DNA from: a virus | Virus record (IMG/VR): IMGVR_UViG_3300008107_000684 | Coordinates: 1-21,437 of that record | DNA length: 21,437 bases | Reading direction: 5' to 3' (one strand) | Shown here: in pieces, positions 6,395 to 21,344 of the stretch | Position numbering within the stretch: the stretch's first letter is position 1 | How the letters are laid out: every line of letters starts with the position of its first letter | Translations under genes and position numbers: made by a program | The notes under the pieces: model-generated | The model's database searches: none | The model's input: the letters and a program-made list of their open reading frames with translations, nothing else | What the model was told of the DNA's origin: nothing

Positions 6395-6440
6395 AATATT
6401 GTCTGGCAAATGTCATACGAAGTTTTTGCCAAACAATATT
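6395..6440. repeat. Palindromic island 1
   Basis: Left arm AATATTGTCTGGCAAA and right arm TTTGCCAAACAATATT enclose a 14-base spacer containing GTCATACGA. The one arm mismatch (C against A on + strand RNA) becomes a U-G pair in - strand RNA. Confidence 0.75.
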
Positions 6441-6477
6441 GGCGAGGACCAGTCTGACCCCAGTGTTGTCATACGAA

Positions 6478-6491
6478 TGTTGTTTGGCAAA
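6478..6491 (-). repeat. Single repeat arm
   Basis: TGTTGTTTGGCAAA, the core in reverse orientation, preceded by GTCATACGA at 6469, just downstream of the 6503-7471 gene's stop. Confidence 0.65.
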
Positions 6492-6502
6492 ATGGTCGGG
6501 TA

Positions 6503-7471
6503 TTAACTAAAGTCGATTTCGTATTTAGCGAACTGTTTTTTTAGGTGATCTTTAATTTCTCTATAAAGGTCCCAATCATCAGTTGCTGTAAGTGGTTTCC
6601 CGTCATACGACTCAAATGACGCAGTAAGTGAAATACTATAATCGGGGATGATGGTATTTGTTCGAGGGTCTATCAATGTTGCGGGATTATAGTCGTATTT
6701 GCTGGTTGAATATAGATATATACCATTACCCATACCCATTCGTAATACGTATGGTTTCCCTTTGTACATACCCTTGGATAATGCTTTGAGAATTACTTTT
6801 CCTCTTTTAACGGATCTTAATCTTTCCTCATCAAAATTATCAGAGAACTTAGCAATTAAGTTTTCAGGGATAACAAGTGTATTACGAATGGCCTGTCTTT
6901 GAAAACTATTTAAATCATTAAACGACTTAACCTCTTGTTTGGGTACGTCGAATATGTTTTCCTGTATTGTTTGTCCGTGACCGAAAAGAAACTTCATATC
7001 TAATTCCGTCATCAAAGTTTTTGCAACCTGACTTGGAATTACTTCTCTTAAATTAAAATTAAACGAACCATTGTCATACGTTCTAAACCCTTCGATTGGA
7101 TAATCCACATCTGGCATTGACATTGACATTTTACCATTACCTATGGCTTCATTGGTGAACAGGTGTAATCCATGTTTTATACCTAAGTTATATATGTGTA
7201 CAAAAATATCGAACATACATGTGGGACTTATTTGTGCACCTCCGTCTAATCTAAAATCAGGTAATATTCTTAAGTTACCCTCATGGGAACTACTTGAGCT
7301 GATTGCACATTTTGCTTCAGCGTTTTCAATTCTGAAGTCTAACGATGAAAAGTCTTTTGAAATTTTAAATATAGCCTCTTCAAAATCAACCTTACTATCA
7401 TTGAATTCAAATTCCTTCTTTGGTTCTTGGTTCTCCCCGTCTTCCATTAGTATGTCATACATCTTGATCAT
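6503..7471 (-). CDS. Hypothetical protein, 322 aa
   Basis: First of the - strand genes at the convergence. I do not recognise the family. The start at 7471 (MIKMYDILMEDGENQ) is preferred over an upstream TTG at 7492 that lies inside a repeat arm; 7462 (MYDILMED) is also possible. The N-terminus is acidic (about residues 9-30), followed by mixed alpha/beta sequence with a Ser-rich patch (AISSSSSHEG) and a Gly/Met-rich one (GMGNGIYLYS). The opening ILMED again contains L-M-E, as in the two tagged proteins, though the rest of the tag is not conserved. A repeat arm lies 14 bases upstream of the start. Confidence 0.7.
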   Translation of the reverse strand: MIKMYDILMEDGENQEPKKEFEFNDSKVDFEEAIFKISKDFSSLDFRIENAEAKCAISSSSSHEGNLRILPDFRLDGGAQISPTCMFDIFVHIYNLGIKHGLHLFTNEAIGNGKMSMSMPDVDYPIEGFRTYDNGSFNFNLREVIPSQVAKTLMTELDMKFLFGHGQTIQENIFDVPKQEVKSFNDLNSFQRQAIRNTLVIPENLIAKFSDNFDEERLRSVKRGKVILKALSKGMYKGKPYVLRMGMGNGIYLYSTSKYDYNPATLIDPRTNTIIPDYSISLTASFESYDGKPLTATDDWDLYREIKDHLKKQFAKYEIDFS

Positions 7472-7484
7472 AATAATAAATACT

Positions 7485-7500
7485 TTTGCCAAACAATATC
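7485..7500 (+). repeat. Single repeat arm upstream of a gene start
   Basis: TTTGCCAAACAATATC. In the - strand reading direction it precedes the ATG at 7471 by 13 bases. Confidence 0.7.
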
Positions 7501-7541
7501 TACCGTCTTCTTGGATCCTGAATCAGGAGACACTGTTTAAT

Positions 7542-7567
7542 AAAAAAATCCCAAGTGCAGACTTGGG
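7542..7567 (-). terminator. Intrinsic terminator
   Basis: On the - strand CCCAAG-TCTGCA-CTTGGG is followed by A and seven T. It lies downstream of the 7634-7822 gene; a longer alternative pairing AATCCCAA/TTGGGATT spans 7546-7585. Confidence 0.8.
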
Positions 7568-7633
7568 GGTCTACACGTTGGGATTTAACGACCGATATAT
7601 AATTAAAGGGCTTTAAAACCCTCAAATCATATA

Positions 7634-7822
7634 TTAGGCTGTTGCAAGGAGCTGATTGCGATAAGCAATTGCATTTCTCTTAGAAGAGAAATTCTTGCTG
7701 TATTTAGTTCCAGCTACACTTACACGTACACGATAGGATGAACCATCGAAGTACACATTGCTTGAAACCGGTACATAAGTAGTTTTAGTACGACGGTTTC
7801 GGTTGGTTGTTGATTTTTTCAT
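7634..7822 (-). CDS. Small basic AP2/Arm-like DNA-binding protein (likely)
   Basis: 62 residues, strongly basic. The N-terminus (TTNRNRRTKTTYVP) is disordered and Arg/Lys-rich. The core, SNVYFDGSSYRVRVSVAG then SKNFSSKRNAIAYRNQLL, reads as three beta strands and a helix, as in AP2 and integrase Arm-type DNA-binding domains. Proteins of this plan occur as stand-alone genes in phages, but their role is unclear. A weak promoter-like TATATTTT lies about 20 bases upstream; downstream is a strong terminator, so it may form a one-gene unit. Confidence 0.6.
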   Translation of the reverse strand: MKKSTTNRNRRTKTTYVPVSSNVYFDGSSYRVRVSVAGTKYSKNFSSKRNAIAYRNQLLATA

Positions 7823-7900
7823 ATAACATTTGGTTTATATTAAAATATAACATCCAAAAGTCATAAAAAAAAATATCCGGCAACTTTTTTTAAAAAAGTT

Positions 7901-7916
7901 TTTGCCAAGCAATATC
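7901..7916 (+). repeat. Single repeat arm, variant
   Basis: TTTGCCAAGCAATATC, one base from the core, between the 7634-7822 and 7935-8078 genes. Confidence 0.65.
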
Positions 7917-7934
7917 GCCCGATCATCTCCTCCC

Positions 7935-8078
7935 TCAGGGTTTCTTCTTATATCGAGAACCCCACTTGATGGACATGTATGCATCATACCTGTGTCTCTT
8001 CATCCCATTGAAGAGAAAGTACACAAAGTAGTAATCCCAAATCCATTCCAACTCTTTAAAGAACTTCTTCATAAGCAT
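7935..8078 (-). CDS. Small basic aromatic protein, 47 aa
   Basis: ATG at 8078, TGA at 7935-7937; a second ATG at 8072 is in frame. The N-terminal half is rich in Phe, Trp and Tyr (KKFFKELEWIWDYYFVYFLF), the C-terminal half is basic (KRHRYDAYMSIKWGSRYKKKP). It could be an amphipathic or membrane-associated peptide. A repeat arm ends 3 bases before the ATG. Coding is plausible from composition and fit between neighbours, but unproven. Confidence 0.55.
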   Translation of the reverse strand: MLMKKFFKELEWIWDYYFVYFLFNGMKRHRYDAYMSIKWGSRYKKKP

Positions 8079-8081
8079 AAT

Positions 8082-8097
8082 TTTGCCAAACAATATC
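8082..8097 (+). repeat. Single repeat arm abutting a start codon
   Basis: TTTGCCAAACAATATC, 3 bases upstream (in - strand sense) of the ATG at 8078. Confidence 0.7.
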
Positions 8098-8123
8098 CGA
8101 CAGACTCATCCTGATCTGAACCG

Positions 8124-8324
8124 TCAGATATTATTATGATACTCGAGATCTTCTTTGTTTATTGATTCAAGATTGAACTCATCGTACAATTGTTTCAGGA
8201 CCCTGAGTTCACCTTCAGATCGATACTCTTCTTCAGGGCTGTCGAAATATCCTAAATCAATTCTGTTTGTTAATGAGTCGATCTTAGTAACGATCCACAA
8301 CATTAAAATGGGTTTATTTATCAT
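8124..8324 (-). CDS. Hypothetical protein, 66 aa
   Basis: Begins MINKPILMLWIVTKIDS and continues with an acidic helical part (SPEEEYRSEGELRVLKQLYDEF). The strand-rich start and acidic helix suggest a small soluble domain. No family recognised. It lies downstream of the terminator at 8354-8379, so it should have its own promoter, but none matching the consensus was found. Confidence 0.55.
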   Translation of the reverse strand: MINKPILMLWIVTKIDSLTNRIDLGYFDSPEEEYRSEGELRVLKQLYDEFNLESINKEDLEYHNNI

Positions 8325-8353
8325 GATATAATAGTTTTACAATTTTATGGGAC

Positions 8354-8379
8354 AAAAAAAAGGACTCTTGTTAGAGTCC
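8354..8379 (-). terminator. Intrinsic terminator of the 8.4-12.4 kb operon
   Basis: GGACTC-TAACAA-GAGTCC followed by eight T on the - strand. The stop codon of the 8371-8958 gene lies in the hairpin loop. Confidence 0.85.
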
Positions 8380-8958
8380 GTGTAAAGCTGGATGAATCTT
8401 TCCTTTTACTCCCCTTGGTCGATACTTACCCTCCTCATCGATGTAGAAGTCAATAATCAATCCAACCACCTTACGGTTAACTCTTGCCACATACAGTGTA
8501 TATGACCCATCTCCAATTCCTGAACGAGTCACCACACCATTTTCATATGAACCCCACTCAAGTTTTGCTAAAGTGATCTTACACATCTTCAGGTACCAAT
8601 CGTCCCCGTCTTTGGTGACAGGAAGCTCGAACGGTCTTCCATCATATGTTTCTGTTGGTACATCCATATCAATACCGTCGACTCTGTAAGTTTCCTTACT
8701 GAAGATACCGGCCTGACCTGAATCAACACCAATCTCAGCAGAATACTTTCTCCACGTGAGATCCTGATCAAGATAATCCTCGTGGATAGCTGTTAGATAC
8801 GCAATTCTGTTGCCCCAACCATCTGTTTCCATTTCAGTGGCATTAGCAACATAGGATCCAGGTAATACATTCTTTACAATGGCTTGGCACCAAGTTGGAA
8901 TGGTGTAGCAGGGATCGGATACTACTACTTCTTTTCCGAGTGTGATTTTGTTTGTCAT
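8371..8958 (-). CDS. DUF4241-like protein
   Basis: 195 residues. DPCY at 15-18, a Trp-Gly pair with RIAYLTAIH (48-59) and VDSGQAGIF (78-86) are hallmarks I associate with the DUF4241 family, whose function is unknown. The start at 8958 falls in TTCGTATGAC, the reverse complement of the GTCATACGAA word found repeatedly in this window's non-coding DNA; the ATG of that word is the start codon. It is the last gene of a long - strand run and its stop lies in the loop of the terminator hairpin. Confidence 0.7.
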   Translation of the reverse strand: MTNKITLGKEVVVSDPCYTIPTWCQAIVKNVLPGSYVANATEMETDGWGNRIAYLTAIHEDYLDQDLTWRKYSAEIGVDSGQAGIFSKETYRVDGIDMDVPTETYDGRPFELPVTKDGDDWYLKMCKITLAKLEWGSYENGVVTRSGIGDGSYTLYVARVNRKVVGLIIDFYIDEEGKYRPRGVKGKIHPALHGL

Positions 8959-8963
8959 ACGAA

Positions 8964-9194
8964 TCAGGGTTTTAATGTTTCTAATATTCTTTCGTAAATC
9001 TTTCTTGTTAAAGAACTGTCCACTGTTCCACCAGGTATTACACGGTCCCTACAGACGATATCACCTGATAAACAATCAACCTCTTTTACCAAAACAGAAT
9101 CAAAAAGTATTGGAGATGGGAATCTAACAATACCCTTTGTTCCTTTTGATAATCCAACTTGGAGTGCTTCATTTCTAAGCTCTAAGAATTCCAT
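8964..9194 (-). CDS. Hypothetical protein, 76 aa
   Basis: A small soluble protein with helical ends (MEFLELRNEALQVG and RKIYERILETLKP) and a strand-rich centre (FDSVLVKEVDCLSGDIVCRD). No family recognised. Its stop is 5 bases from the next start, so it is co-transcribed with the DUF4241-like gene. Confidence 0.6.
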   Translation of the reverse strand: MEFLELRNEALQVGLSKGTKGIVRFPSPILFDSVLVKEVDCLSGDIVCRDRVIPGGTVDSSLTRKIYERILETLKP

Positions 9195-9230
9195 ATGATA
9201 AAGGTATTACATTAACTGGAATATTCCAAA

Positions 9231-9731
9231 TTAATTTGTGATATTTTTATAGATGCTTTCGTACTTCTTGATATTCTCCTGAATTTCAACATCCATAGCT
9301 TTTACTAACTTGGAATATGCTTTATCCATAAAGTCCTGATTGCCAGACAATTTATCAAGATCACCGTCCCAAAACTCGAGGTTATCTACAATGACACGTA
9401 TATCCTTAGTTGTCTTATCAGTTCTAAAAAATGGACAACGAGCGTAGATATATTCATTACGTACTATGTTGAGCTTGATGTCATCGTTCGTCAGATTTTC
9501 CTTGGACCTGATTTGCATGATGATCACTTCAAGATCAGCAAGTTGCTGAATCTCTGTCTTTGTCTTCGTGATTAGATCCTGATATGATTTAACAAACTGA
9601 CCCAACTTCTTGGATTCCTTATTTGCCAGTGAACTTCCATAATCCATGAACCTGTCGTAAGAACTTTTTTCTTTTTCATTACCTACGACATTTACAAACA
9701 CACCTTCGATGTTCTTGTTTACTCTACCCAT
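9231..9731 (-). CDS. Hypothetical coiled-coil protein, 166 aa
   Basis: Central helices with heptad spacing (GQFVKSYQDLITKTKTEIQQ, then LADLEVIIMQIRSK) suggest a coiled coil, with a second helical region near the C-terminus (KAMDVEIQENIKKYESIYKN). No enzyme motif seen. Inside it, 9340-9351 carries TTGCCAGACAAT, the variant repeat arm, here in coding sequence. Confidence 0.65.
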   Translation of the reverse strand: MGRVNKNIEGVFVNVVGNEKEKSSYDRFMDYGSSLANKESKKLGQFVKSYQDLITKTKTEIQQLADLEVIIMQIRSKENLTNDDIKLNIVRNEYIYARCPFFRTDKTTKDIRVIVDNLEFWDGDLDKLSGNQDFMDKAYSKLVKAMDVEIQENIKKYESIYKNITN

Positions 9732-9754
9732 AATTGCAGTTTTTGTTTTTTGTT

Positions 9755-9952
9755 TTAAAAATTATTTTGCCAAACAATATTGGACATCTCCTCAGATCTG
9801 TTGTTCTTGAGATGTTCAATGTACTCGAGAAACGTCATTCCGAATCCATTCGGAACATCGTGCAACCTCCTACCGACATTGAATTCGTTAATCCAATCTT
9901 GTTCCGATGGTTGATCCACGGGATACGTGCTTGTCATGATGTTAATACTCAT
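9755..9952 (-). CDS. Hypothetical protein, 65 aa, ending in a repeat arm
   Basis: Begins MSINIMTSTYPVDQPSEQDW, with a short central helix (MTFLEYIEHLKNN). The last eight residues, NIVWQNNF, are encoded by the repeat arm at 9766-9780. The rest of the gene may therefore have been extended or trimmed when the repeat arrived. No family recognised. Confidence 0.5.
   Translation of the reverse strand: MSINIMTSTYPVDQPSEQDWINEFNVGRRLHDVPNGFGMTFLEYIEHLKNNRSEEMSNIVWQNNF
9766..9780 (+). repeat. Repeat arm inside a gene's 3' end
   Basis: TTTGCCAAACAATAT, read by the 9755-9952 gene as NIVWQN and lying about 35 bases before the start of the 9231-9731 gene. Confidence 0.7.
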
Positions 9953-9962
9953 TTGTTATGAT

Positions 9963-10193
9963 TTAACGGTTATAAATTTTTTTATATTCCTTATCGGTCA
10001 AGAACCTGAAAGGTGAAGTAATCTTCTTACCAAGAAGCAAGAGTCCCATCACATGGTCAATTTTCTCGATGTCATCAATAAGAGCTCGATTACCCTGTGC
10101 AGGATGTTTGATGTTGTTGATTGTTGTGTACAATCTTTCTTCGATGGAATCAACTACATAAGTTGACTCGAAGGTTTCTTTTTTCTTTGCCAT
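9963..10193 (-). CDS. Hypothetical protein, 76 aa
   Basis: Begins MAKKKETFESTYVVDSIEER. Helical and basic, with GLLLLGKKITSPFRFLTDKE near the C-terminus. No family recognised. It lies 12 bases after the upstream gene's stop and 10 bases before the next start, within the operon. Confidence 0.6.
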   Translation of the reverse strand: MAKKKETFESTYVVDSIEERLYTTINNIKHPAQGNRALIDDIEKIDHVMGLLLLGKKITSPFRFLTDKEYKKIYNR

Positions 10194-10205
10194 GGTTTTT
10201 TGTTT

Positions 10206-10616
10206 TTAAAATTTAGTTACGAAAAGTTTATAATCAACTGTACCGATTTCAATGAAACTAAGGTTATCCGCATTTACACTATCATTATAAATCCAATTGG
10301 GATTCTCTCTCGGATTATATTTCAACCTAACACACATGGAGTACGTGTCATACGGATCAAACCCATCAAACTTTACATCTATCGAATCACACAAGATCCA
10401 TGCACAAACTGTCTTGTGTTCACCGTCAAAGATCTTCTGTGCGGTCTTCTTATTGTTCTTGAGTGTACATCCTTTCATCACGAGCTGCGTTGATGTAGGT
10501 GATACATATTCCACCTCACCAGATGGATACTGTATTTTCCATTTCATATAATTCTGACCTCGCCCAAGATTAAAACGAACTTTAATTTTCTTGCTCATGT
10601 TTTTGATCTGTGTCAT
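10206..10616 (-). CDS. Conserved phage-type hypothetical protein, 136 aa
   Basis: The start is placed at 10616 (MTQIKNMSKK) because it is 21 bases from the -7 box at 10637-10644, the spacing seen in other units; an ATG at 10667 would lie upstream of the promoter. The ATG again lies inside a GTCATACGAA word. The sequence has strand-rich segments (RGQNYMKWKIQYPSG), a TAQKIFDGEHKTVCAWILCD stretch and a C-terminal beta region. I have a general impression of similar phage proteins of unknown function, but name none. Confidence 0.7.
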   Translation of the reverse strand: MTQIKNMSKKIKVRFNLGRGQNYMKWKIQYPSGEVEYVSPTSTQLVMKGCTLKNNKKTAQKIFDGEHKTVCAWILCDSIDVKFDGFDPYDTYSMCVRLKYNPRENPNWIYNDSVNADNLSFIEIGTVDYKLFVTKF

Positions 10617-10636
10617 ACGAATAATATTAGGAGTTA

Positions 10637-10668
10637 CAAAGATATAACAGGGATACGAATATACCAAA
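10637..10668 (-). promoter_or_regulatory. Internal promoter with overlapping inverted repeat
   Basis: TATCTTTG (10637-10644 on + coordinates) and TTTG (10665-10668) are 20 bases apart on the - strand. A 12-base perfect inverted repeat (10644-10655 and 10671-10682) overlaps the promoter. Confidence 0.7.
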
Positions 10669-10682
10669 TATATCCCTGTTAT
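10644..10682. promoter_or_regulatory. Operator-like 12-base inverted repeat
   Basis: ATAACAGGGATA and TATCCCTGTTAT, exact inverses, are separated by 15 bases that hold the -33 element. On the + strand a T-run follows, so it could instead terminate + strand transcripts. It lies between the GP88-like gene and the 136-residue gene. Confidence 0.55.
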
Positions 10683-10691
10683 TTTTTTATA

Positions 10692-11450
10692 TTATTGGAT
10701 TACAAATTTATTTGTATCCACGAGTTTATTTCGGACCCGTTTAAATTTCAAACCGACAATGACGTTTTTATCATCTCTGTACCTCATGTCATAAAGATCT
10801 CCATTGATTACAGGACGACCCCAAAAGGTTTCGGGTACATCTTTAAAAACTACCGCCACCCTGATGTCATTGTTCAACATACTAATACAGTCCTGAAAAT
10901 TAGAACCACTGTAGGAAAATGTGATATCATAATTCGGATACTTCTTTACCAACTCCAAACGTTTAGCAACCTTTGTGTAATCGTAAAATTGAACGTCAGA
11001 AAAGATCTCCAAAATATTTTGTTTGCGACCGTCAACATCTAAGTAAAATGATTCAGGTGAGATGTCACTCGTGTTATTCAGACGTACACTGAAATGAAGA
11101 TCTTCATTGATCGATCTTTGCCAGGCATTATAGATCTCATCGATCATCCACTTCATAAAGAATTCTCGATGTTCAAAAAACAGTTTTGTCTTCTTGATTC
11201 GTGATGCATTAATCTTGTTCTCCTTAACGTCCATTTTATTACGCCCTGATTCATTCAAACACAATTGTGTACATTCAGGGGTCCTTTTCGGACAAACTTC
11301 GTATCCACTCATTTTAGCAGGTGCGAGATAAAGTGTGTAAACAAGTTCGTCATACTTATAAGCTTTCTCATGTTTGGTCGAATTGTTAACCATTCCGAGG
11401 TATGACAAACCTGTCAACTTCTTTGCTTGTGCAATTGATTTGTATTCCAT
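10692..11450 (-). CDS. GP88-like phage protein
   Basis: 252 residues from 11450. That ATG is 19 bases from the -7 box; an upstream start at 11471 would overlap the box. Features of the GP88 (gene product 88) family: LYLAPAKMSGYEVCP (41-54), three Cys (C53, C60, C64) in a CP-x-C-x-CL arrangement, VRLNNTSDI (122-130) and FYDYTK (155-160). The family is widespread in phages; its biochemical role is not established. It could be a metal-binding enzyme, since the Cys cluster is conserved, but I infer no reaction. Confidence 0.75.
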   Translation of the reverse strand: MEYKSIAQAKKLTGLSYLGMVNNSTKHEKAYKYDELVYTLYLAPAKMSGYEVCPKRTPECTQLCLNESGRNKMDVKENKINASRIKKTKLFFEHREFFMKWMIDEIYNAWQRSINEDLHFSVRLNNTSDISPESFYLDVDGRKQNILEIFSDVQFYDYTKVAKRLELVKKYPNYDITFSYSGSNFQDCISMLNNDIRVAVVFKDVPETFWGRPVINGDLYDMRYRDDKNVIVGLKFKRVRNKLVDTNKFVIQ

Positions 11451-11468
11451 ATAATTTGATTTGTGATA

Positions 11469-11500
11469 CAAAGATATAAATTTTATTTAATTCTACAAAA
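11469..11500 (-). promoter_or_regulatory. Promoter of the GP88-like gene
   Basis: TATCTTTG (11469-11476) and a TTTG at 11496-11499 on the - strand, spaced 19 bases. It begins just after the upstream gene's stop (11501). Confidence 0.65.
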
Positions 11501-12112
11501 TTAATCCTCAGCTTTAGCAACTTCCTGCATGTCCTCAATAAATTGTGCAACAGATTTAGGGAGTTGTTTCAGGTCATATGACTTGATCATTTTAACAGGT
11601 GAATACTCTCCCTCATTTTTCATGTGATAAAATCTATCTTCTTTAGTTAAAGGATTTGTATTAAAACCCTCATAGATCTCGAAAGTATTCTTATCAAGGT
11701 CGATAACATAAGCCCACTCACAGAACAAACTATCTGCAGCAAAATCCTCGCTATTGTTCAGCCAAATAAGTTTATCCGTGTCATCCTCATAAACCATGTT
11801 CAAAATATTTGCACCATTGTCACGAGTAAGGAGTGGATATTTTTTATGATACTTTTGTGCTTGTTCACCATTCATCCAACCATCAGAAGCGTCGATTTTT
11901 GCCAGAAAATTTTCCATCTCCTTTTGCTTCCGTGGACTCTTTTCAATAAATCGGCAACGTTCCAAAGTTTGTTTAAACTTTTCCATGTCGGAGTTCAACA
12001 AAAATTCTACAACTGTTACCCCTTGTCCTGATGGATACCCATCCCATTGTCCGTACTGTGCGATCTTGGTTTCTCCGTTTGAGATTACCATCGTGAGGTT
12101 TCTTGTTCCCAT
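11501..12112 (-). CDS. GTRNLT-type conserved hypothetical protein
   Basis: 203 residues. The N-terminus MGTRNLTMVISNGE followed by AQYGQWDGYPSGQG is a strongly conserved pattern I associate with a widespread phage family of unknown function. The C-terminus is helical (PKSVAQFIEDMQEVAKAED). It follows the 12125-12445 gene after 12 bases and should be co-transcribed from the promoter at 12466. Confidence 0.7.
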   Translation of the reverse strand: MGTRNLTMVISNGETKIAQYGQWDGYPSGQGVTVVEFLLNSDMEKFKQTLERCRFIEKSPRKQKEMENFLAKIDASDGWMNGEQAQKYHKKYPLLTRDNGANILNMVYEDDTDKLIWLNNSEDFAADSLFCEWAYVIDLDKNTFEIYEGFNTNPLTKEDRFYHMKNEGEYSPVKMIKSYDLKQLPKSVAQFIEDMQEVAKAED

Positions 12113-12124
12113 GTGTGTGTTTAT

Positions 12125-12445
12125 TTAAAGTAAAGCAATGATTTGTTTTCTTTTATCTACGTATTTTACAAGTCGTTTGATAAATGCATCGGCACCCTGT
12201 TTGCTCTTGAAGTAAGCAAAGAATTGACAGTACTCACTATCCTCGTCCGCAGATTTAGTAAGAACTTTGTTTTCTTTAAGACGTTCAACAACATCGTAAT
12301 TACTTTCGCAGTTGTCAAATGTTTCGAGTGCTCTAAGATCTGCAGTGACGGTCCAATGTTTGTCATCACTACCCTTGTACGGTTTCAAACTTTCAGCCTT
12401 AAATGATCTCCCTTCTGTTGAGAGAGAATAGAATACTTTGTCCAT
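12125..12445 (-). CDS. Hypothetical protein, 106 aa
   Basis: Begins MDKVFYSLSTEGRSFKAESL. A ferredoxin-like alternation of strands and helices is plausible (DKHWTVTADLRALETFDN, then FFAYFKSKQGADAFIKRL), but no motif confirms it. It is the first gene after the promoter at 12466-12497. Confidence 0.65.
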   Translation of the reverse strand: MDKVFYSLSTEGRSFKAESLKPYKGSDDKHWTVTADLRALETFDNCESNYDVVERLKENKVLTKSADEDSEYCQFFAYFKSKQGADAFIKRLVKYVDKRKQIIALL

Positions 12446-12465
12446 GGTTATAATGTTTTAGGATA

Positions 12466-12523
12466 CAAATATACTACGTATAAATTGATAATCCAAATTT
12501 AATTTGTTAAAATTTTGTGAAGG
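12466..12523 (-). promoter_or_regulatory. Promoter with upstream box
   Basis: On the - strand: TATATTTG (12466-12473), TTTG (12494-12497), spacing 20. The box TGTTAAAATTTTGTGAAGG (+ strand) is at 12505-12523, 7 bases upstream of the -33 element. ATG 21 bases downstream. Confidence 0.8.
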
Positions 12524-12549
12524 TGAATTCACCTGTGCCGGGATTCGTT

Positions 12550-12604
12550 GATATTGTCTGGCAAGTCGAGTAGATCCCGTCCAACCTATTTGCCAAACAA
12601 TATC
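12550..12604. repeat. Palindromic island 2
   Basis: Arms GATATTGTCTGGCAAG and TTTGCCAAACAATATC around a 23-base spacer. 12578-12611 is identical to 14899-14932 of island 4, and spacer piece TCGAGTAGATC occurs inverted in island 3. Confidence 0.8.
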
Positions 12605-12647
12605 CTTAGCTGTTGCTGCGCACAGTAGAAGATGAGGTAACAGCAAT

Positions 12648-12675
12648 AAAAAACCCCCTGAAACCAGGGGGTTTT
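12648..12675 (-). terminator. Intrinsic terminator
   Basis: CCCCCTG/CAGGGGG stem around a 4-base loop, extended by A/T pairs and followed by T-rich sequence on the - strand. Ends the unit of the 12711-12944 gene. Confidence 0.85.
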
Positions 12676-12710
12676 GACACTTACTAAACCATTAGAAAAA
12701 AAACCAAATG

Positions 12711-12944
12711 TTACTTCTTTTTCACAGTAACGATTTCGAATAGGTTCTTATAGTTGTTATTTATAATTTCATCTTGGTACATCATAGCATCATCTAATGA
12801 AAGTTTGGACTTTGATATTTCCCAATTCTTCTTTGTTTTAGATGTCCATACTTCCCAATACTTTTTCGCATCGTCTAATTTGATACGAACGAAAACTTGT
12901 TTGGAGTGATCAAACAATGCTTTTCTTTTTTCTGGTTCTACCAT
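12711..12944 (-). CDS. Hypothetical basic protein, 77 aa
   Basis: The start at 12944 (MVEPEKRKALFDH) is 22 bases from a TACTTTTG -7 box (12966-12973); an ATG at 12968 would overlap that box and was not chosen. Basic protein with Trp pairs (KKYWEVWTSKTKKNWEISKS) and a helical C-terminal part (SLDDAMMYQDEIINN). No family recognised. A single-gene unit with its own terminator. Confidence 0.65.
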   Translation of the reverse strand: MVEPEKRKALFDHSKQVFVRIKLDDAKKYWEVWTSKTKKNWEISKSKLSLDDAMMYQDEIINNNYKNLFEIVTVKKK

Positions 12945-12965
12945 ACGTTTGTTTTTTTGGTTATG

Positions 12966-12996
12966 CAAAAGTAGTGAAATATATTAAATAAACAAT
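12966..12996 (-). promoter_or_regulatory. Promoter, weak -33
   Basis: TACTTTTG at 12966-12973 fits TAnnTTTG. ATTG at 12993-12996 is a partial -33, about 19-20 bases away. No upstream box of the usual form. Confidence 0.55.
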
Positions 12997-13076
12997 AAAA
13001 TATTTTAAATGTTTAATTTTAGGTAAAAAAAAACTAAACAAATCTTTTATCTAATTGATTACCATTGTCATACGAA

Positions 13077-13088
13077 TTGCCAAACAAC
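13077..13088 (+). repeat. Single repeat arm with GTCATACGA
   Basis: TTGCCAAACAAC, preceded immediately by GTCATACGAA at 13067. No second arm nearby. Confidence 0.6.
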
Positions 13089-13132
13089 TTGTGCGATCGG
13101 ATTTCCCGCTGCGGGTTTTAGGTAATACAAAT

Positions 13133-13157
13133 AAAAAGGGACACCTTTCGGTGCCCC
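13133..13157 (-). terminator. Intrinsic terminator
   Basis: GGGGCACC-GAAA-GGTGTCCC followed by five T on the - strand. Ends the ParB-like gene unit. Confidence 0.85.
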
Positions 13158-14762: not shown

Positions 14763-14780
14763 TGTTATTAATTTAGATTA

Positions 14781-14838
14781 CAAATATACAACGAATAAAT
14801 TAATATTCCAAATAATAATTGTTAAAAATTTGTGAAGG
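14781..14838 (-). promoter_or_regulatory. Promoter with upstream box
   Basis: TATATTTG (14781-14788), TTTG (14809-14812), spacing 20; box TGTTAAAAATTTGTGAAGG at 14820-14838, 7 bases upstream. Confidence 0.8.
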
Positions 14839-14872
14839 AAATCAATGGTTTCAGCCGATCTGATTCGGCGCC

Positions 14873-14925
14873 AATATTGTTTGGCAAGTGAATATGGTCG
14901 TCCAACCTATTTGCCAAACAATATC
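14873..14925. repeat. Palindromic island 4
   Basis: Arms AATATTGTTTGGCAAG and TTTGCCAAACAATATC around a 21-base spacer. 14899-14932 is identical to 12578-12611. A third arm follows at 14994. Confidence 0.8.
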
Positions 14926-14945
14926 CTTAGCTCACGGTACCACTC

Positions 14946-14988
14946 GTACCCGAAGTACCCGAAGTACCCGAAGTACCCGAAGTACCCG
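14946..14988. repeat. Tandem repeat of GTACCCGAA
   Basis: Four full 9-base units and a partial fifth. On the - strand it reads Gly-Thr-Ser repeated, then VS-stop, like the end of a collagen-like protein gene. Two units, with CCACTC before them, recur at 20534-20557. Confidence 0.85.
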
Positions 14989-14993
14989 ATCTG

Positions 14994-15008
14994 TTTGCCA
15001 AACAAATT
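14994..15008 (+). repeat. Single repeat arm
   Basis: TTTGCCAAACAAATT, directly after the tandem repeat. Confidence 0.7.
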
Positions 15009-15049
15009 ACAATCTGTTGCACATGCGTTGCAGCCAAATTGCACAAAAC

Positions 15050-15073
15050 AAAAAACCCCAGCAAGTGCTGGGG
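15050..15073 (-). terminator. Intrinsic terminator
   Basis: CCCCAGCA/TGCTGGGG, 8 perfect pairs, followed by six T on the - strand. Ends the four-gene unit starting at 17171. Confidence 0.9.
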
Positions 15074-15100
15074 TAAATCAAAAACACTATGAAAACAAAA

Positions 15101-15799
15101 CTAACTTTCCAACTCCAAAAGAGTTTTATATTCTTCTTCGGTAAGGTGTCGTGTATTTTCACTTCTTACTCCTTCCTTCTTCTTAATCAAAATACAATCA
15201 CCTTGCCTAACAATCTTTTCAATACAACCCTTTGGAATATCAGTTTGAATTGTCCAAGCAATTGCGTCAATTGCCGTGATTTTACTTCCATAATCATCTT
15301 CACTACTATACCAACGATTTGTTGTTCTGTTATCGTTTGTTTCAAACACACTACGGGCGTCAATCCAAATCATATACTCTCTATCGGTTGAGGTGTCTTT
15401 ACACTTTACATAATAAACTGGTTGTGGTTTCCGCCAAGCGTTCTCAACTCCTTTACTCCAAACATCGCCATCTACTTTGTAAAGTTCATAAGTATCGTTG
15501 AACTCTTTTGTAATCAACTCACCACTTTGAGTTACCCAAGTAGTTTGTTTCTTCAAAGTTTCCTTATCAATCAATTTAGGTTTGACTTCTTTAACCAATC
15601 TTTCCAATCCAAGACAACCAACCGCCACTCGTCTCTGTTCTGTATTACGAAACAATGTGGCAATTTCTTTGAAGGTCATTGGAACAATATCGTTCCAAAT
15701 ATCTTCAATCTCTTTCATTGGACATTCGTTATATTTCAATTTCAAAAGGCGACAACCTTCGTTGTACGGAAATTCAATGTTGTTGATAATAATTTTCAT
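15101..15799 (-). CDS. Hypothetical protein, 232 aa
   Basis: The N-terminus (MKIIINNIEFPYNEG) is followed by a helical segment with a Cys-Leu-Gly-Leu-Glu run (VGCLGLERLVKEV), a Trp-rich beta part (DVWSKGVENAWRKPQPVYYV) and a C-terminal IPKGCIEKIVRQGDCILIKKK module. No family recognised. Last gene of the unit from the promoter at 17191; its start is 21 bases from the upstream gene's stop. Confidence 0.7.
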   Translation of the reverse strand: MKIIINNIEFPYNEGCRLLKLKYNECPMKEIEDIWNDIVPMTFKEIATLFRNTEQRRVAVGCLGLERLVKEVKPKLIDKETLKKQTTWVTQSGELITKEFNDTYELYKVDGDVWSKGVENAWRKPQPVYYVKCKDTSTDREYMIWIDARSVFETNDNRTTNRWYSSEDDYGSKITAIDAIAWTIQTDIPKGCIEKIVRQGDCILIKKKEGVRSENTRHLTEEEYKTLLELES

Positions 15800-15820
15800 T
15801 TGTTTTGTTTTTAATTGTTT

Positions 15821-16501
15821 TTAATCTTCGCTTGGTCTGTAAATAGTAAAACTGCGACTGACTTGAATTGTAATACCTTTCTTTGTGAACTCCATATCTG
15901 TTTCACTATTTTCCAAGTTAGTAGTCCAATTAAACCACTCACTCGCCTCGCCATTAGTATCTTCGTTTGTGAAAGTATGAGTGTCGGCTTCATATTCAAA
16001 CTTTTTCAAAAGTTTATCAATGATATTAGCTTCATCATTGTTAATCACACAATCAATTTTGTAATTAACATTCTTCTCGCCATCACCGCCATTCATACTA
16101 CCAATCTTTGATTGTAATACTTCCTTTTCTTCTTTACTCAAAACAACTTCAAAAGTATCAGTAAAGGTTTCACTAAACTCAGCCTGAGCGTCTTTGTGAT
16201 AATCAAAGTCAGGTTCATCTTCATCATCATTAAATGTAATGATAACCTTACCAGCTTCACCCATATAGTAGCCATCACTATTCACATAGAACTCCACACG
16301 CTTAAACACTTCGTCCTCAAAGAAATTTTTAAGTTCTTCTGTTTTCTTATTACTAATCTTCTTTGCTTTACTATCGTAAAAATTAAATTCATAGTCGTTC
16401 ATACTATCGCCACCAGCGGAAAATTCCATTTCACACTCAGCGACTTTTGCTTCTTTCCAAAGCAACATTTCGGGGGTAAGTTTCAAGTTTTCAGTTTGCA
16501 T
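15821..16501 (-). CDS. Hypothetical acidic protein, 226 aa
   Basis: The start at 16501 (MQTENLKLTPEMLLW) overlaps the upstream gene by 11 bases and is preferred to 16552, which would overlap by 62. Strongly acidic, with Asp/Glu-rich stretches (FNDDEDEPDFDYHKDAQAEF) and a Gly-rich GGDG loop. The acidic surface could mimic nucleic acid or bind metal; neither can be shown. No family recognised. Confidence 0.65.
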   Translation of the reverse strand: MQTENLKLTPEMLLWKEAKVAECEMEFSAGGDSMNDYEFNFYDSKAKKISNKKTEELKNFFEDEVFKRVEFYVNSDGYYMGEAGKVIITFNDDEDEPDFDYHKDAQAEFSETFTDTFEVVLSKEEKEVLQSKIGSMNGGDGEKNVNYKIDCVINNDEANIIDKLLKKFEYEADTHTFTNEDTNGEASEWFNWTTNLENSETDMEFTKKGITIQVSRSFTIYRPSED

Positions 16502-16889
16502 GAATTTTGTTATTAAGTTGTTGAACAATAAGTTTTCCTTCTTCGGTATCAAGTTCTTTTACTCCATTACACATCCAGGGTTGGACTTCCAAATGTTTCA
16601 AATAATCTTGTGGTGTTGGTACGAACTTCATACGAAAGTCCTCTGCGATATGTAACATCGCCACATCAACTACATCAACACTTTTGCCATCACTATTAGT
16701 GATATTGTAACCAAAAATTTTTGGTACAATAGTATAAGCGAACCAAGTGTTATGAGTAAGGAGCCGTGAACTATTATTGTTCATTGTCGCTTTTGGACTA
16801 TCAATCAATTCGTGGATAGCGAGGTAATCTTCTACTTTACCACCCCAACGCTTGACCGAAGATTTTGAATGAATGAGAGGATTTGCCAT
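16491..16889 (-). CDS. DUF6915-like protein
   Basis: 132 residues. HSKSSVKRWGGKVEDYLAIH (7-26), IDSPKATMN, then FGYNITNSDGKSVDVVDV and PTPQDYLKHLEVQPWM follow the pattern of DUF6915, a family of unknown function. The family's usual RHR after the first helix is reduced here to SRLLTH. It shares 11 bases with the next gene. Confidence 0.65.
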   Translation of the reverse strand: MANPLIHSKSSVKRWGGKVEDYLAIHELIDSPKATMNNNSSRLLTHNTWFAYTIVPKIFGYNITNSDGKSVDVVDVAMLHIAEDFRMKFVPTPQDYLKHLEVQPWMCNGVKELDTEEGKLIVQQLNNKIHAN

Positions 16890-16907
16890 AGTGTTTTGTT
16901 TTGTTGG

Positions 16908-17171
16908 TTAATCCCAAACTCTTTCAATAGTTTGTGTAAATGGATTGTACTCAACTTGTTTTCCCATTGACCACTCACCTTTTTCAATTTTCAATGTTTG
17001 GTGTTCATTACTGAATGAGCCGTCAGGTTGTTCGTGTTTCAACAAACTATCTTTTGTTACAACCAGATCAGTAAATTCGGTTTCCGTTTCATCAATTTTG
17101 AAATCACCATACAAAGTGTGTTGATTTACTCCTTCACCTTTGAGGAGCGTGTGTTTCTTTTTTGCTTTCAT
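16908..17171 (-). CDS. Hypothetical protein, 87 aa
   Basis: Begins MKAKKKHTLLKGEGVNQHTL. Beta-rich with many Thr, Glu and Lys, so perhaps a small barrel; no family recognised. First gene after the promoter at 17191, ATG 20 bases from the -7 box. Ends 18 bases before the DUF6915-like gene. Confidence 0.65.
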   Translation of the reverse strand: MKAKKKHTLLKGEGVNQHTLYGDFKIDETETEFTDLVVTKDSLLKHEQPDGSFSNEHQTLKIEKGEWSMGKQVEYNPFTQTIERVWD

Positions 17172-17190
17172 TGTTTAATAATTTAGAATA

Positions 17191-17248
17191 CAAATATAAA
17201 GATAATAAATGAATAAAACAAATTTATTTTGTTAAAATTTTGTGAAGG
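17191..17248 (-). promoter_or_regulatory. Promoter with upstream box
   Basis: TATATTTG (17191-17198), TTTG (17219-17222), spacing 20; box TGTTAAAATTTTGTGAAGG at 17230-17248, 7 bases upstream. Confidence 0.8.
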
Positions 17249-17273
17249 AAGAAGACAGGTGTGGCCCAGTTTT

Positions 17274-17336
17274 GATATTGTCTGGCAACCCCTTCCACAT
17301 CTGTCCCTGTCATACGAATCTTTGCCAAACAATATC
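17274..17336. repeat. Palindromic island 5
   Basis: Arms GATATTGTCTGGCAA and TTTGCCAAACAATATC around a 32-base spacer ending in GTCATACGAATC. 17308-17376 is duplicated at 18239-18307. Confidence 0.8.
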
Positions 17337-17376
17337 GGCGCATGCGCACGCTGCGATCGACAGCAACTTCAGAGCA
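17308..17376. repeat. 69-base direct duplication, copy 1
   Basis: Runs from TGTCATACGAATC through the repeat arm and a GCGCATGCGC/CGATCG region up to the terminator. 68 of 69 bases match 18239-18307. Confidence 0.9.
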
Positions 17377-17377
17377 T

Positions 17378-17406
17378 AAAAAAACCCCACCATTTCTGAT
17401 GAGGTC
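17378..17406 (-). terminator. Intrinsic terminator
   Basis: ACCTCATC/GGTGGGGT stem (with G-T pairs) followed by seven T on the - strand. Ends the secreted-protein gene. Confidence 0.8.
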
Positions 17407-17429
17407 TTTCTATTATGAACCACTAATGT

Positions 17430-18131
17430 TTATCTTTTAGTTAATATTGTTAAATCAGACACTTCAAAATATTCATCATTCATATTTTTTGATTCGTAAA
17501 CTTTTTTTGTGTCAAAATCTTTACCATCATAAAGGGTTGTTGGTAATAAAAATCGATAAACAATTTTACCCTCTGACATTGTTTTCTTTATTTTCATTAC
17601 ATAATTAAATTTAGATGATTTTTTATTTAACACATCTTTTAATCTAACTCTTAATCCTCTATCAACAATATCTACATTAGACTCGTCGATGTTTGTTATA
17701 CTCTCACATCTAATTGTTTGTATTGTTAATTCACCTTCAATATTTTTTAATTTATTAAAATCGGATTCATCTATAACATAACCAGTAATTTTTTTAAATT
17801 CAACAGGGTCTTGTCTAATAGCAGGATATTTGTAATAATTATCTAATTCATCAATTAATAAAACATAATAATTTTTATTCTCAAAATTTAAATTTTTGAT
17901 TTGAATCTTTGTAAAATTAACCGAACCATAAAACATATAATTAAGTTTTTTTGGGTATATCATATTTTCATTACCCACCCATATTCCCATATCGGTATTA
18001 TATTTCCATCCAGTTGATTTAAGAATCGGTTGATACTCACCACTCCAAGTTGGGATTGTTGTATTAACTCTGTCTTGTCCGTATGATACGAACGATACTA
18101 AAACCATTGTTAATACTAATAACTTTTTCAT
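17430..18131 (-). CDS. Secreted protein with signal peptide
   Basis: 233 residues. MKKLLVLTMVLVSFVSYGQD is a Sec signal peptide: basic n-region, hydrophobic core, likely cut after SYG before Gln19, in the style of flavobacterial exported proteins. There is no lipobox Cys at that site. The mature part is beta-rich (many Asn, Lys, Tyr; MKIKKTMSEGKIVYRFLLP). No family recognised. The leader is long (50 bases from the -7 box) and includes the 27-base element shared with the ParB-like gene. As a phage gene it may alter the host envelope; this is inference. Confidence 0.75.
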   Translation of the reverse strand: MKKLLVLTMVLVSFVSYGQDRVNTTIPTWSGEYQPILKSTGWKYNTDMGIWVGNENMIYPKKLNYMFYGSVNFTKIQIKNLNFENKNYYVLLIDELDNYYKYPAIRQDPVEFKKITGYVIDESDFNKLKNIEGELTIQTIRCESITNIDESNVDIVDRGLRVRLKDVLNKKSSKFNYVMKIKKTMSEGKIVYRFLLPTTLYDGKDFDTKKVYESKNMNDEYFEVSDLTILTKR

Positions 18132-18140
18132 AATAGATTG

Positions 18141-18167
18141 TGTTCAGTAAACCTGTCCCCGTGTTTG
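18141..18167 (-). promoter_or_regulatory. 27-base leader element, copy 2
   Basis: 25 of 27 bases match 13984-14010. Possible mRNA hairpin AAAC-ACGGGGACAG-GTTT. It lies 9 bases upstream of the ATG. Confidence 0.65.
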
Positions 18168-18180
18168 ATTGGTTAGAATA

Positions 18181-18238
18181 CAAATATACAATGTATATAA
18201 TCATATTCCAAATAATAATTGTTAAAAATTTGTGAAGG
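18181..18238 (-). promoter_or_regulatory. Promoter with upstream box
   Basis: TATATTTG (18181-18188), TTTG (18209-18212), spacing 20; box TGTTAAAAATTTGTGAAGG at 18220-18238. The 69-base duplication starts at the very next base. Confidence 0.8.
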
Positions 18239-18307
18239 TGTCATACGAATCTTTGCCAAACAATATCGGCGCATGCGCGCGCTGCGATCGACAGCAACTT
18301 CAGAGCA
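18239..18307. repeat. 69-base direct duplication, copy 2
   Basis: One mismatch to 17308-17376. It carries one repeat arm (18252-18267) but, unlike copy 1, no left arm or spacer lies between it and the promoter box. Confidence 0.9.
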
Positions 18308-18336
18308 AAAAAAAGCCCCTCGTAGAAACGAGAGGC
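18307..18336 (-). terminator. Intrinsic terminator
   Basis: GCCTCTCG/CGAGGGGC stem followed by eight T on the - strand. Ends the DUF932-like gene. Confidence 0.9.
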
Positions 18337-19314: not shown

Positions 19315-19383
19315 AATGTTGTTTGGCAAATGTAATACCTCGACTCAAGAAAATTTGTTCCGAACCACTTGCCAAACAATATC
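19315..19383. repeat. Palindromic island 6
   Basis: Arms AATGTTGTTTGGCAAA and CTTGCCAAACAATATC around a 37-base spacer. A third, variant arm TTGCCAGACAAGATC follows at 19452-19466. Between them, two GCAGCGCTTCTGG copies (19392-19404 and 19424-19436) form a short direct repeat. Confidence 0.75.
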
Positions 19384-20342: not shown

Positions 20343-20361
20343 GTGTTTAAAATTTAGAATT

Positions 20362-20393
20362 CAAATATACAACTAATAAAATGATATTCCAAA
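20362..20393 (-). promoter_or_regulatory. Promoter of the 19552-20342 unit
   Basis: TATATTTG (20362-20369) and TTTG (20390-20393), spacing 20. A degenerate upstream box (TGTTAAGATTATC) begins at 20401, 7 bases away. Confidence 0.75.
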
Positions 20394-20446
20394 AAATAAT
20401 TGTTAAGATTATCATAATACATCCAAGATCCCTGAAGACGCCAGAT

Positions 20447-20510
20447 AATATTGTTTGGCAATTCACACCAAGACATCTTGAGTCTCGATCTACATTTGCC
20501 AAACAAGATT
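20447..20510. repeat. Palindromic island 7
   Basis: Arms AATATTGTTTGGCAA and TTTGCCAAACAAGATT around a 33-base spacer. Followed by a collagen-like GTACCCGAA remnant at 20534-20557. Confidence 0.75.
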
Positions 20511-20559
20511 CAACATCCGGAGAACCTGATGTCCCACTCGTACCCGAAGTACCCGAAAT

Positions 20560-20584
20560 AAAAAACCCCCGATTAATTCGAGGG
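20560..20584 (-). terminator. Intrinsic terminator containing a stop codon
   Basis: CCCTCGA/TCGGGGG stem followed by six T on the - strand. The stop codon of the 33-residue gene (20573-20575) lies in the loop, so coding runs into the hairpin. Confidence 0.75.
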
Positions 20585-20674
20585 TTCTTCAATATCACAA
20601 TGTTCTTTACATTCGGAACATATTGGGTCTTCGGTGTTCCACACTTCAGCCCCACAACAAGTACTAACATTCAT
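20573..20674 (-). CDS. 33-residue Cys-rich zinc-binding peptide
   Basis: ATG at 20674, TAA in the terminator loop. MNVSTCCGAEVWNTEDPICS then ECKEHC has C6, C7, C19, C22, C26 and H25, the pattern of a minimal zinc ribbon. The CCGAE...C..C..HC arrangement is common in tiny phage proteins. It is the last gene of the unit from the promoter at 21248 and starts 10 bases after its neighbour. Confidence 0.7.
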   Translation of the reverse strand: MNVSTCCGAEVWNTEDPICSECKEHCDIEEPSN

Positions 20675-20684
20675 GTTATAATTT

Positions 20685-21011
20685 TTAAATAGTGTAACAA
20701 TATCCTCTAACAACTTCACAAACATTCTTCATTGTTTTTTCTTTAAGTTTGGGGTATTGTGTTAATTGTTTTTTTAATTTCTTAATTTCTTTTTCAATTT
20801 TAGTATGTCTATTAGACATCATAATAATTAAAACATTTTCTCTATCGGCGGTATCACCATCACCCCAATAATCAGTATCTACAATTTCAAGGTACTCATC
20901 AATACCGACATTAATTTCTTTATCGGTAAAAAAATTGGTCATCTCACCTTTACCATAAAACATTTTAACGTAATCAAAAAAACTTTTTCTCTCGGTGTTG
21001 TTTAATTTCAT
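20685..21011 (-). CDS. Hypothetical protein, 108 aa
   Basis: Begins MKLNNTERKSFFDYVKMFYG; acidic middle (DEYLEIVDTDYWGDGDTAD) and a Lys-rich coiled-coil-like end (KIEKEIKKLKKQLTQYPKLK). No family recognised. It sits between two genes in one unit, 9 bases from the upstream stop. Confidence 0.65.
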   Translation of the reverse strand: MKLNNTERKSFFDYVKMFYGKGEMTNFFTDKEINVGIDEYLEIVDTDYWGDGDTADRENVLIIMMSNRHTKIEKEIKKLKKQLTQYPKLKEKTMKNVCEVVRGYCYTI

Positions 21012-21020
21012 ATAGTTTAT

Positions 21021-21227
21021 TTAGTAGTTATCGTGTAATAGTTTCTCTATCTTATCCCACTCTTTCATTGGGAGAGGTTTTAATATTCCTTCATTAACGT
21101 GATTAACACAAATCGCCGAACCAATATCATACGGGTCTTGTGTCAGTACATCATAAGTTTCTTCACCATTGATACTAACACGATATACCACAAAATTGGT
21201 TTTCTCAACTTCAACTTGATTTTTCAT
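21021..21227 (-). CDS. Hypothetical protein, 68 aa
   Basis: Begins MKNQVEVEKTNFVVYRVSIN. Beta-rich N-terminal half, then a helix ending KEWDKIEKLLHDNY. No family recognised. First gene of the three-gene unit, ATG 21 bases from the -7 box. Confidence 0.65.
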   Translation of the reverse strand: MKNQVEVEKTNFVVYRVSINGEETYDVLTQDPYDIGSAICVNHVNEGILKPLPMKEWDKIEKLLHDNY

Positions 21228-21247
21228 AGTGGTTTAAGTTTAGGATA

Positions 21248-21305
21248 CAAATATACAATGTATATTGTTAATGTGGTGTTAAAGATCGTTAAAGTTTTGT
21301 TATGA
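21248..21305 (-). promoter_or_regulatory. Promoter with weak -33 and upstream box
   Basis: TATATTTG (21248-21255) is perfect; no TTTG lies at the expected place (21276-21279). A variant box CGTTAAAGTTTTGTTATGA occupies 21287-21305, the usual position, and may compensate. Confidence 0.65.
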
Positions 21306-21329
21306 AATTTAACCCGTGGTGTGACACGA

Positions 21330-21344
21330 TTTGCCAAACAATTT
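21330..21344 (+). repeat. Single repeat arm
   Basis: TTTGCCAAACAATTT, between the promoter above and the last terminator. No second arm in the window. Confidence 0.65.

Follow-up and report, generated by a model that had tools for sequence, protein, structure and literature searches.

The locus analysed here raises the question of why a short sequence recurs, singly and as inverted pairs, between the small gene units of a phage. It lies in a virus record of 21,437 bases (IMG/VR record IMGVR_UViG_3300008107_000684), the whole of which is referred to as the window. The recurring sequence, termed the arm, occurs once or as a pair in islands that typically lie between a terminator and the next Bacteroidota-type promoter. 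On balance it appears probable that these islands are seams of a cassette region, similar to the promoter early stem-loops (PeSLs) of T4-type phages, and that they carry lineage-specific operators of a putative phage factor. The seam part of this reading is supported; the factor that would read the arms is a predicted one. The reading draws on the architecture of the islands, their confinement to one region, letters that differ between lineages, the sense bias of single copies and an excess of cassette gain and loss at islands.

The arm family and its islands

With up to three mismatches allowed, the pattern TTTGCCAAACAATATC matches the window 25 times, compared with 0.63 matches expected from dinucleotide shuffles (at most 3 in any of 100), which bears out an earlier note on this DNA that had described a dispersed repeat family of about two dozen arms. 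The six exact copies are all on the + strand, and 23 of the 25 arms fall within positions 6395-21345. An arm reported in a metalloprotease gene (1101) could not be kept in the family; the arms at 1101 and 4508 both fall outside this region and are near chance level. The arm is a directed site, GATATT-GTT-TGGC-AAA, with the gene-sense reading GATATTGTTTGGCAAA, and it stands alone, mostly in the gene sense, or forms an inward-facing pair. All seven inverted pairs proposed earlier were recovered (Table 1), with GGCAAA ends pointing inward in each and 14-37 nt between the paired 16-mers; the arm at 14198 needs four mismatches. The claim that pairs mostly sit between a terminator and a promoter stood for promoters, with a consensus promoter downstream of six of the seven pairs, and less well for terminators, which a simple scan places upstream of four; 6395/6425, the pair with which the array ends, lacks both. 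Single arms shortly before start codons in the 7-10 kb run (at 7485, 8082 and 9766) were found as described, as was the arm that supplies the C-terminus of a gene, at the 3' end of open reading frame (ORF) 9755-9952. A variant at 9339 that had been called coding does fall within conserved LSGN codons of a protein, and the same place is arm-like in two relatives. The idea that arms encode a peptide (DIVWQ-like) was dropped, the arm sequence being found in three different frames in different genes.

In a strict test, requiring a terminator at most 200 nt upstream and a promoter at most 200 nt downstream of an arm, 18 of 20 arms passed in the relative G001 (11% of random positions) and 8 of 20 in the window (4%). 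Among 132 islands, a promoter lies within 160 nt downstream in 84 (median 63) and a run of at least five T within 110 nt upstream in 111. In all 17 loci compared, arms have both features more often than random positions do, which bears on the promoter tracking suggested earlier as a check; four loci (L281, L270, L278 and L183) have few recognisable promoters overall. The island arms are flanked by GC-rich DNA. Single arms show a sense bias, with sense to antisense counts of 10:0 in G001, 11:1 in the window, 10:1 in G004, 15:5 in G002 and 12:4 in G003; under loose matching the counts for single copies are 19:3 in the window and 352:116 summed over 23 representative loci.

The islands contain a second dispersed motif, overlooked by the earlier note and termed motif B (CGTATKACA). 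Its + strand form GTCATACGAA occurs 13 times in the window with at most one mismatch, against 1.34 expected. In the 23 representative loci (411,142 bases) CGTATKACA has a sense to antisense ratio of 163:14, and inside the loops of 231 islands the ratio is 44:5. The motif is common to the lineages and is often found in an island loop or close to a promoter; at one site each in G000, G001 and G003, 35-36 nt separate it from the first box of the promoter downstream.

Confinement to one region and lineage-specific letters

The window is a fragment of a phage whose relatives include large T4-like phages. In six records searched, the gp23 capsid gene (Gp23, PF07068) scored above cut-off in G001 (1.3e-64) and G003 (1.8e-63) and under it in G002 (6.2e-4), with no match in the remaining three; the window itself is too short to show T4-type membership. 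The G001 gp23 matches Rhodothermus phage RM378 at 28.7% identity across 95% of its length. The hosts are probably Bacteroidota because of the promoter type, TTTG followed after 19-20 bases by TANNTTTG, which we take to be the Bacteroidota pattern. From 6503 onwards the genes of the window are on the - strand, which has nine such promoters, with intrinsic terminators; two promoters are on the other strand. A paired-arm scan retrieved two contigs about 99.9% identical to the window over the aligned parts, and more distant contigs, found through DNA pattern and protein, have homologous genes in a partly different order. No near match to 6300-21437 was present in 50,697 phage records, and a search for isolate relatives by single window proteins gave distant matches only, or none. 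A pattern scan of bacterial genomes returned three stretches with 1, 0 and 2 arms (at most three mismatches), the reversed-pattern control giving 1 in each.

A search of long contigs for the core, in line with the advice of the earlier note, revealed that copies are not scattered. Five larger contigs (97-336 kb) were searched over their full length, each with the arm pattern of its own lineage, and 122 of 123 exact copies lie within a single region of 14-30 kb per contig: 19 of 19 at 56.9-71.4 kb in G002, 18 of 18 at 25.4-39.6 kb in G003, 20 of 21 at 141.7-171.7 kb in G001, 49 of 49 at 91.8-114.1 kb in G022, and 16 of 16 at 255.4-269.1 kb, the end of the contig, in G026.

The expectation that arms are conserved in relatives held for the layout of the islands but not for their letters, which are often different, with TTCTGTGGC, TAGTGGGGC and TTGTCTAGTT among the variants. 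For instance, ATTGTYTGGCA has no copy in G001, which carries TTCTGTGGC at equivalent kinds of places. Six site types have other letters (TAGTGGGGC, TTACTGGGG, TTACCGGGA, TTAGTCTGG, TTGTCTAGTT and TTGTTTCGC), and islands are recoverable from sequence in 22 of the 23 representative loci. The generic half-site TTNNNTGGC forms 643 inward and 53 outward pairs in 198 loci, redundant contigs included. Lineages with TGGC arms and at least five distinct islands number 14, with 133 islands in total; identity of the sense NNN triplet is 0.78 within lineages and 0.57 between them, GTT being common to several. In a tree of ten gene families, with the small number of five taxa, the window groups with G004 but spells its arms like G002 and G003, and arm type therefore does not simply track gene ancestry.

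Two other repeats were seen among these loci. In L149 (IMGVR_UViG_3300032288_004603), TTGTCTAATT lies beside the -7 box of the Bacteroidota promoter (23 versus 2 by strand, at most one mismatch); neither ATTGTYTGGCA arms nor the protein F1 described below were found in L149, and TTGTCTAATT is a different promoter-proximal repeat. CATAACTCATTGATTATCAA is common to an island in each of two lineages; in a third lineage its complement, differing at one position, adjoins an arm (L012 2060-2120, L108 3830-3892 and L147 8110-8150).

Directed sites of this kind could act as stoperator-like roadblocks, with a phage repressor bound to directed intergenic sites stopping RNA polymerase and with the inverted pairs as operators. 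Such a system would have tens of directed sites per phage, intergenic, mostly sense singles and with a lineage-specific consensus, as is the case here, but the sites lie in one region and not throughout the genome, inverted pairs upstream of promoters are common, and L279 has the opposite orientation. In addition, no Phage_integrase was present in six records and no repressor was found, and roadblocks appear rather unlikely.

DNA sites or RNA hairpins

The earlier note had also listed RNA processing hairpins. The pair would fold in read-through or leader RNA and be processed or bound, with CGUAUKACA as the recognised loop. The inward pairs and the sense bias of the loop motif agree with this, as does the folding of 23 islands, some of which gave strong scores (lowest z -4.7 for the gene strand and -5.7 for the other). 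However, partner arms, whose covariation had been proposed as a check, do not covary. When an arm's own partner was compared at three positions with partners permuted from other islands of the same phage, the values were 2.211 and 2.215 (p = 0.60, 133 islands), and no covariation was seen in 45 pairs from the first five genomes (p = 0.86) or in 23 pairs from four genomes (p 0.2-1.0). The outer flanks are complementary no better than permuted pairs (p 0.285, 44 pairs), leaving a long flank-to-flank stem unsupported, and the window has no match to Rfam families at gathering score. Several lineages retain an identical mismatch between partners, with GTT set against GGT or GAT. The argument that a shared arm mismatch pairs as U-G only in - strand RNA is correct for three pairs but selective, since for 19315/19368 RNA of the - strand would have A.C and RNA of the + strand G.U, and the mismatches of relatives are uncompensated. 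Most pairs lie upstream of a promoter and single arms are partnerless. A hairpin role is thus weakened, with the loop bias still speaking for it, and is improbable.

The inner-end gap of the pairs peaks at 4, 14-16, 24, 36-37 and 44-46 nt. Among periods of 7-15, 10.5 fits best (R = 0.55, which exceeds all 3000 jittered sets across all periods), and mean phases agree across 14 lineages (R = 0.84, p = 5e-5). A spacing of about 10.5 bp speaks for protein bound along a single face of the helix. Operator sites, another role named in the earlier note, are favoured, if unproven, on the basis of directed sites, lineage-specific letters, proximity to promoters and helical spacing in 11 of 22 loci.

Gain and loss of cassettes at islands

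Compared with its two near-identical relatives, the window has an extra unit of 931 bp, associated with an 81-bp direct repeat of which the relatives retain one copy (Table 1). Because the relatives also differ by two bases beside the junction, the exact exchange at the repeats is unreadable. Among the oriented relatives, 39 unfiltered insertion or deletion rows, some of which repeat a single event or fall outside the arm region, have 48 of 78 breakpoints at arms, compared with 15.5 at random positions. For 13 well-flanked events with repeats merged, 21 of 26 breakpoints are at arms, where an intergenic null gives 12.7 (p = 0.0007). Homology of 50-81 nt between event ends is present in 13 of the 39 rows and in 7 of the 13 events, and because the ends share such stretches, homologous recombination between islands fits. 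The recombination linkers of the earlier note thus find support in the gain and loss of cassettes.

A second cassette lies outside the arm region. ORF 570-1727 (HEFAH motif, metalloprotease-like), flanked by 47-bp direct repeats at 495-541 and 1735-1781, is absent from the relative G008, and its bounding repeat differs. The different genes at 570 and 5434 begin near-identically (M-K/R-I-L-V/I-T-E-x-Q), a recurrent N-terminus. A ParB-like protein at 13189-13974 (phrog_12305) stands at 71% to that of G004 and at 38% to those of G001-G003, with 78% between G001 and G002; such lineage-dependent closeness is a sign of cassette exchange between lineages.

Recombination might also explain the repeats as passive homology seams, the arms being remnants homogenised between islands with no binding factor involved. 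Recombination is able to homogenise copies, and the end homology in a third of the unfiltered rows agrees with it, but the islands conserve the short arm and CGTATKACA while their flanks differ widely, and neither the fixed inward order nor the spacing of about 10.5 bp in half of the loci would be expected, which gives this explanation a low probability. Mobile repeats are very improbable, whether REP/REPIN elements with a RAYT transposase, which singlets and inverted pairs resemble (the earlier note had suggested REP-like elements), or integron-like attC cassettes, whose arrays likewise have one island per unit and lineage-specific repeats, as neither Y1_Tnp nor Phage_integrase (PF00589) was present in six possibly incomplete records, many units have their own promoters, and copies are restricted to one region.

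A putative reader and the weight of the evidence

Two proteins were considered as readers of the arms. F1 (window 7634-7822) is a conserved basic protein of 62 residues, present in 12 of 17 records and in 8 of 16. Its AlphaFold model (pLDDT 84) has a predicted beta-sheet/helix fold with a weak resemblance to AP2 and integrase arm-type DNA-binding domains (Foldseek E 0.3-0.4), and VIA-align Z values of 4.2-5.8 may merely reflect a common arrangement; F1 has no Pfam match, and a sequence comparison with solved structures gave nothing meaningful. The other candidate was the ParB-like F0.

Several results weigh against seams that carry operators. No binding factor was found among these candidates: F1, which is not supported as a reader, is undetected in the long site-bearing contigs G022, G024 and G026 and keeps its core unchanged where lineages differ in their sites, and F0 does not track arm type; the records are possibly incomplete. 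The strict test was passed by only 4 of 30 arms in G002, 4 of 28 in G003 and 1 of 11 in G004 (random 2-3%), and the strict promoter pattern fits just five promoters in G002 and two in G003. Single sites in L279 are mostly opposite the promoter strand (24:2). The period of 10.5 was noticed in the data before being tested, is significant in only 11 of the 22 loci, falling short in the window (R 0.28, p 0.57), and in G001 alone the peak is at 8-8.5. The sense bias of CGTATKACA in loops would also fit a role at the RNA level. For the cassettes, arms are at both ends of 21 of the 39 rows, at one end of 6 and at neither end of 12, and the 13 events, the product of manual merging, partly share breakpoints, so that they are not fully independent. 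Long-range breaks of gene order show no clear enrichment at arms (58 of 112 arm gaps versus 42 of 100 armless gaps).

A unit runs from its promoter through one to few small genes to a terminator, with an island before the next promoter. If the islands are seams with operators, their similarity at the ends of units would let homologous recombination from island to island add or remove whole expressed units, as proposed for T4-type PeSLs. The arms would be DNA operators through which a phage-encoded lineage factor regulates or insulates the promoters; selection by the factor, together with recombination, may keep the copies alike, and a change in factor specificity would shift the whole arm set. 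That lineages spell their sites differently suggests a fast-evolving regulator reading the arms. A bolder and doubtful possibility is a regulon of T4-type phages in which a group-specific DNA address might mark cassettes as 'own' and control when they are expressed, and perhaps also keep out or silence cassettes or competitors with a foreign address. As tentatively, it would combine an address at the seams of one region (16-49 exact copies in the contigs counted whole) with a fast-evolving phage reader in phages with no detected integrase, and it is likened to repressor-stoperator pairs, which define the immunity groups of temperate phages.

With the islands, a long-standing question becomes open to test: by what means large phages gain, lose and rearrange small genes yet keep each expressible. 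The divergence of their letters while the layout stays points to a putative DNA-binding factor with quickly evolving specificity, and the islands mark where the plastic gene region lies in uncultivated Bacteroidota-type phages.

Features of the window

Apart from the features in Table 1, Pfam matches in the cassette region include a GP88 family protein (PF17338) at 10692-11471 and a DUF932 protein (PF06067) at 18375-19256. Inside islands, 9-base tandem repeats at 14941-14998 and 20535-20556 code GTS GTS on the - strand, with collagen-like G-x-y periodicity, and GC-rich repetitive stretches are also present in islands of relatives.

Table 1. Arms, motif B sites and cassette boundaries in the window (arm positions in the first column are arm starts)
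Feature	Position	Strand	Remark
Motif B span, sense CGTATGACA, + strand TGTCATACG	6251..18249	-	12 of 13 GTCATACGAA-like sites on the - strand
Motif B, ten sites	6251, 6313, 6412, 6468, 6602, 8954, 10612, 13067, 17309, 18240	-	
Inverted pair 6395/6425	6395..6440		3' end of array; further + strand arm 6476-6491
Single sense arm	7485..7500	-	Directly before start of gene 6503-7471; preceded by terminator 7542-7568
Single sense arm	7901..7916	-	Upstream of gene 7634-7822
Single sense arm	8082..8097	-	Directly before small ORF 7935-8078
Single sense arm	9766..9781	-	3' end of ORF 9755-9952; precedes gene 9231-9731
Inverted pair 12550/12589 (island)	12550..12604		Terminator 12648-12671 and promoter 12466-12497 on either side
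Degenerate single sense arm (4 mismatches)	13076..13091	-	Terminator 13133-13157 before; then motif B 13067-13076
Inverted pair 14153/14198, weaker arms	14153..14213		Between terminator 14249-14277 and promoter 14032-14063
Inverted pair 14873/14910	14873..14925		Between terminator 15050-15073 and promoter 14781-14812; extra sense arm 14994-15009
Inverted pair 17274/17321	17274..17336		Motif B in loop; upstream of promoter 17191-17222
81-bp direct repeat, copy 1	17308..17388		Motif B, arm, GC-rich segment, terminator start; cassette end
Extra cassette, gene 17430-18131 and its promoter	17389..18238	-	Missing from both ~99.9% identical relatives
Promoter adjoining copy 2	18181-18212		
81-bp direct repeat, copy 2	18239..18319		Single sense arm 18252-18267; motif B 18240-18249
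Terminator adjoining copy 2	18307-18336		
Inverted pair 19315/19368	19315..19383		Upstream of promoter 19243-19274; further weak sense arm 19451-19466
Inverted pair 20447/20495	20447..20510		Between terminator 20560-20584 and promoter 20362-20393
Single sense arm	21330..21345	-	Follows terminator 21377-21404

Comparison with known systems

Among described elements, PeSLs are reportedly 'mobile regulatory cassettes' of T4-type phages, as Arbiol in 2010 and Comeau in 2014 are said to have put it. Their stem-loop reportedly doubles as a terminator for the gene before it, within a composite promoter-terminator motif; here, the simple scan places a separate terminator before four of the seven window pairs. 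PeSLs combine a promoter and a stem-loop between small genes and are linked to shuffling (PMC4503421, PMC3950731). The islands are alike in T4-type membership (two relatives), an inverted sequence beside a host-type promoter, small genes, a plastic region and shuffling of units, here as cassettes at islands. Unlike PeSLs, the islands often have a terminator besides the inverted pair, each arm is a directed site, specific to its lineage, which is also found as a single copy in the sense orientation, and they show pair spacing of about 10.5 bp (half of the loci), a second shared motif and probable Bacteroidota hosts.

The haloarchaeal virus HGTV-1 has a PeSL-like motif, in which a promoter element and an inverted repeat precede most ORFs on one side of the genome (PMC3950731). 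The islands resemble it in being a conserved motif of these two parts before ORFs and differ in that HGTV-1 is an archaeal virus with a TATA-like element, lineage-specific letters not being mentioned in the passage on that motif. The stoperators of cluster A mycobacteriophages are 20-30 directed sites oriented with transcription, many of them intergenic, with a subcluster-specific consensus and a cognate repressor (PMC6550527, PMC9283540). The islands likewise have directed, transcription-oriented sites with a lineage-specific consensus, L279 being an exception, but they are regional and often paired, whereas stoperators are spread through the genomes of temperate phages and have no dyad symmetry.

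REP and REPIN elements are short extragenic bacterial sequences that occur singly or as inverted pairs. The islands are similarly short, extragenic and single or paired; they differ in being confined to one region, and no RAYT was found in six records. No description of this island type in Bacteroidota phages was present in the literature searched, which left out most subscription papers. The closest kind of element is the PeSL and the closest site behaviour is that of stoperators, and the islands share traits with each but are a full match to neither.

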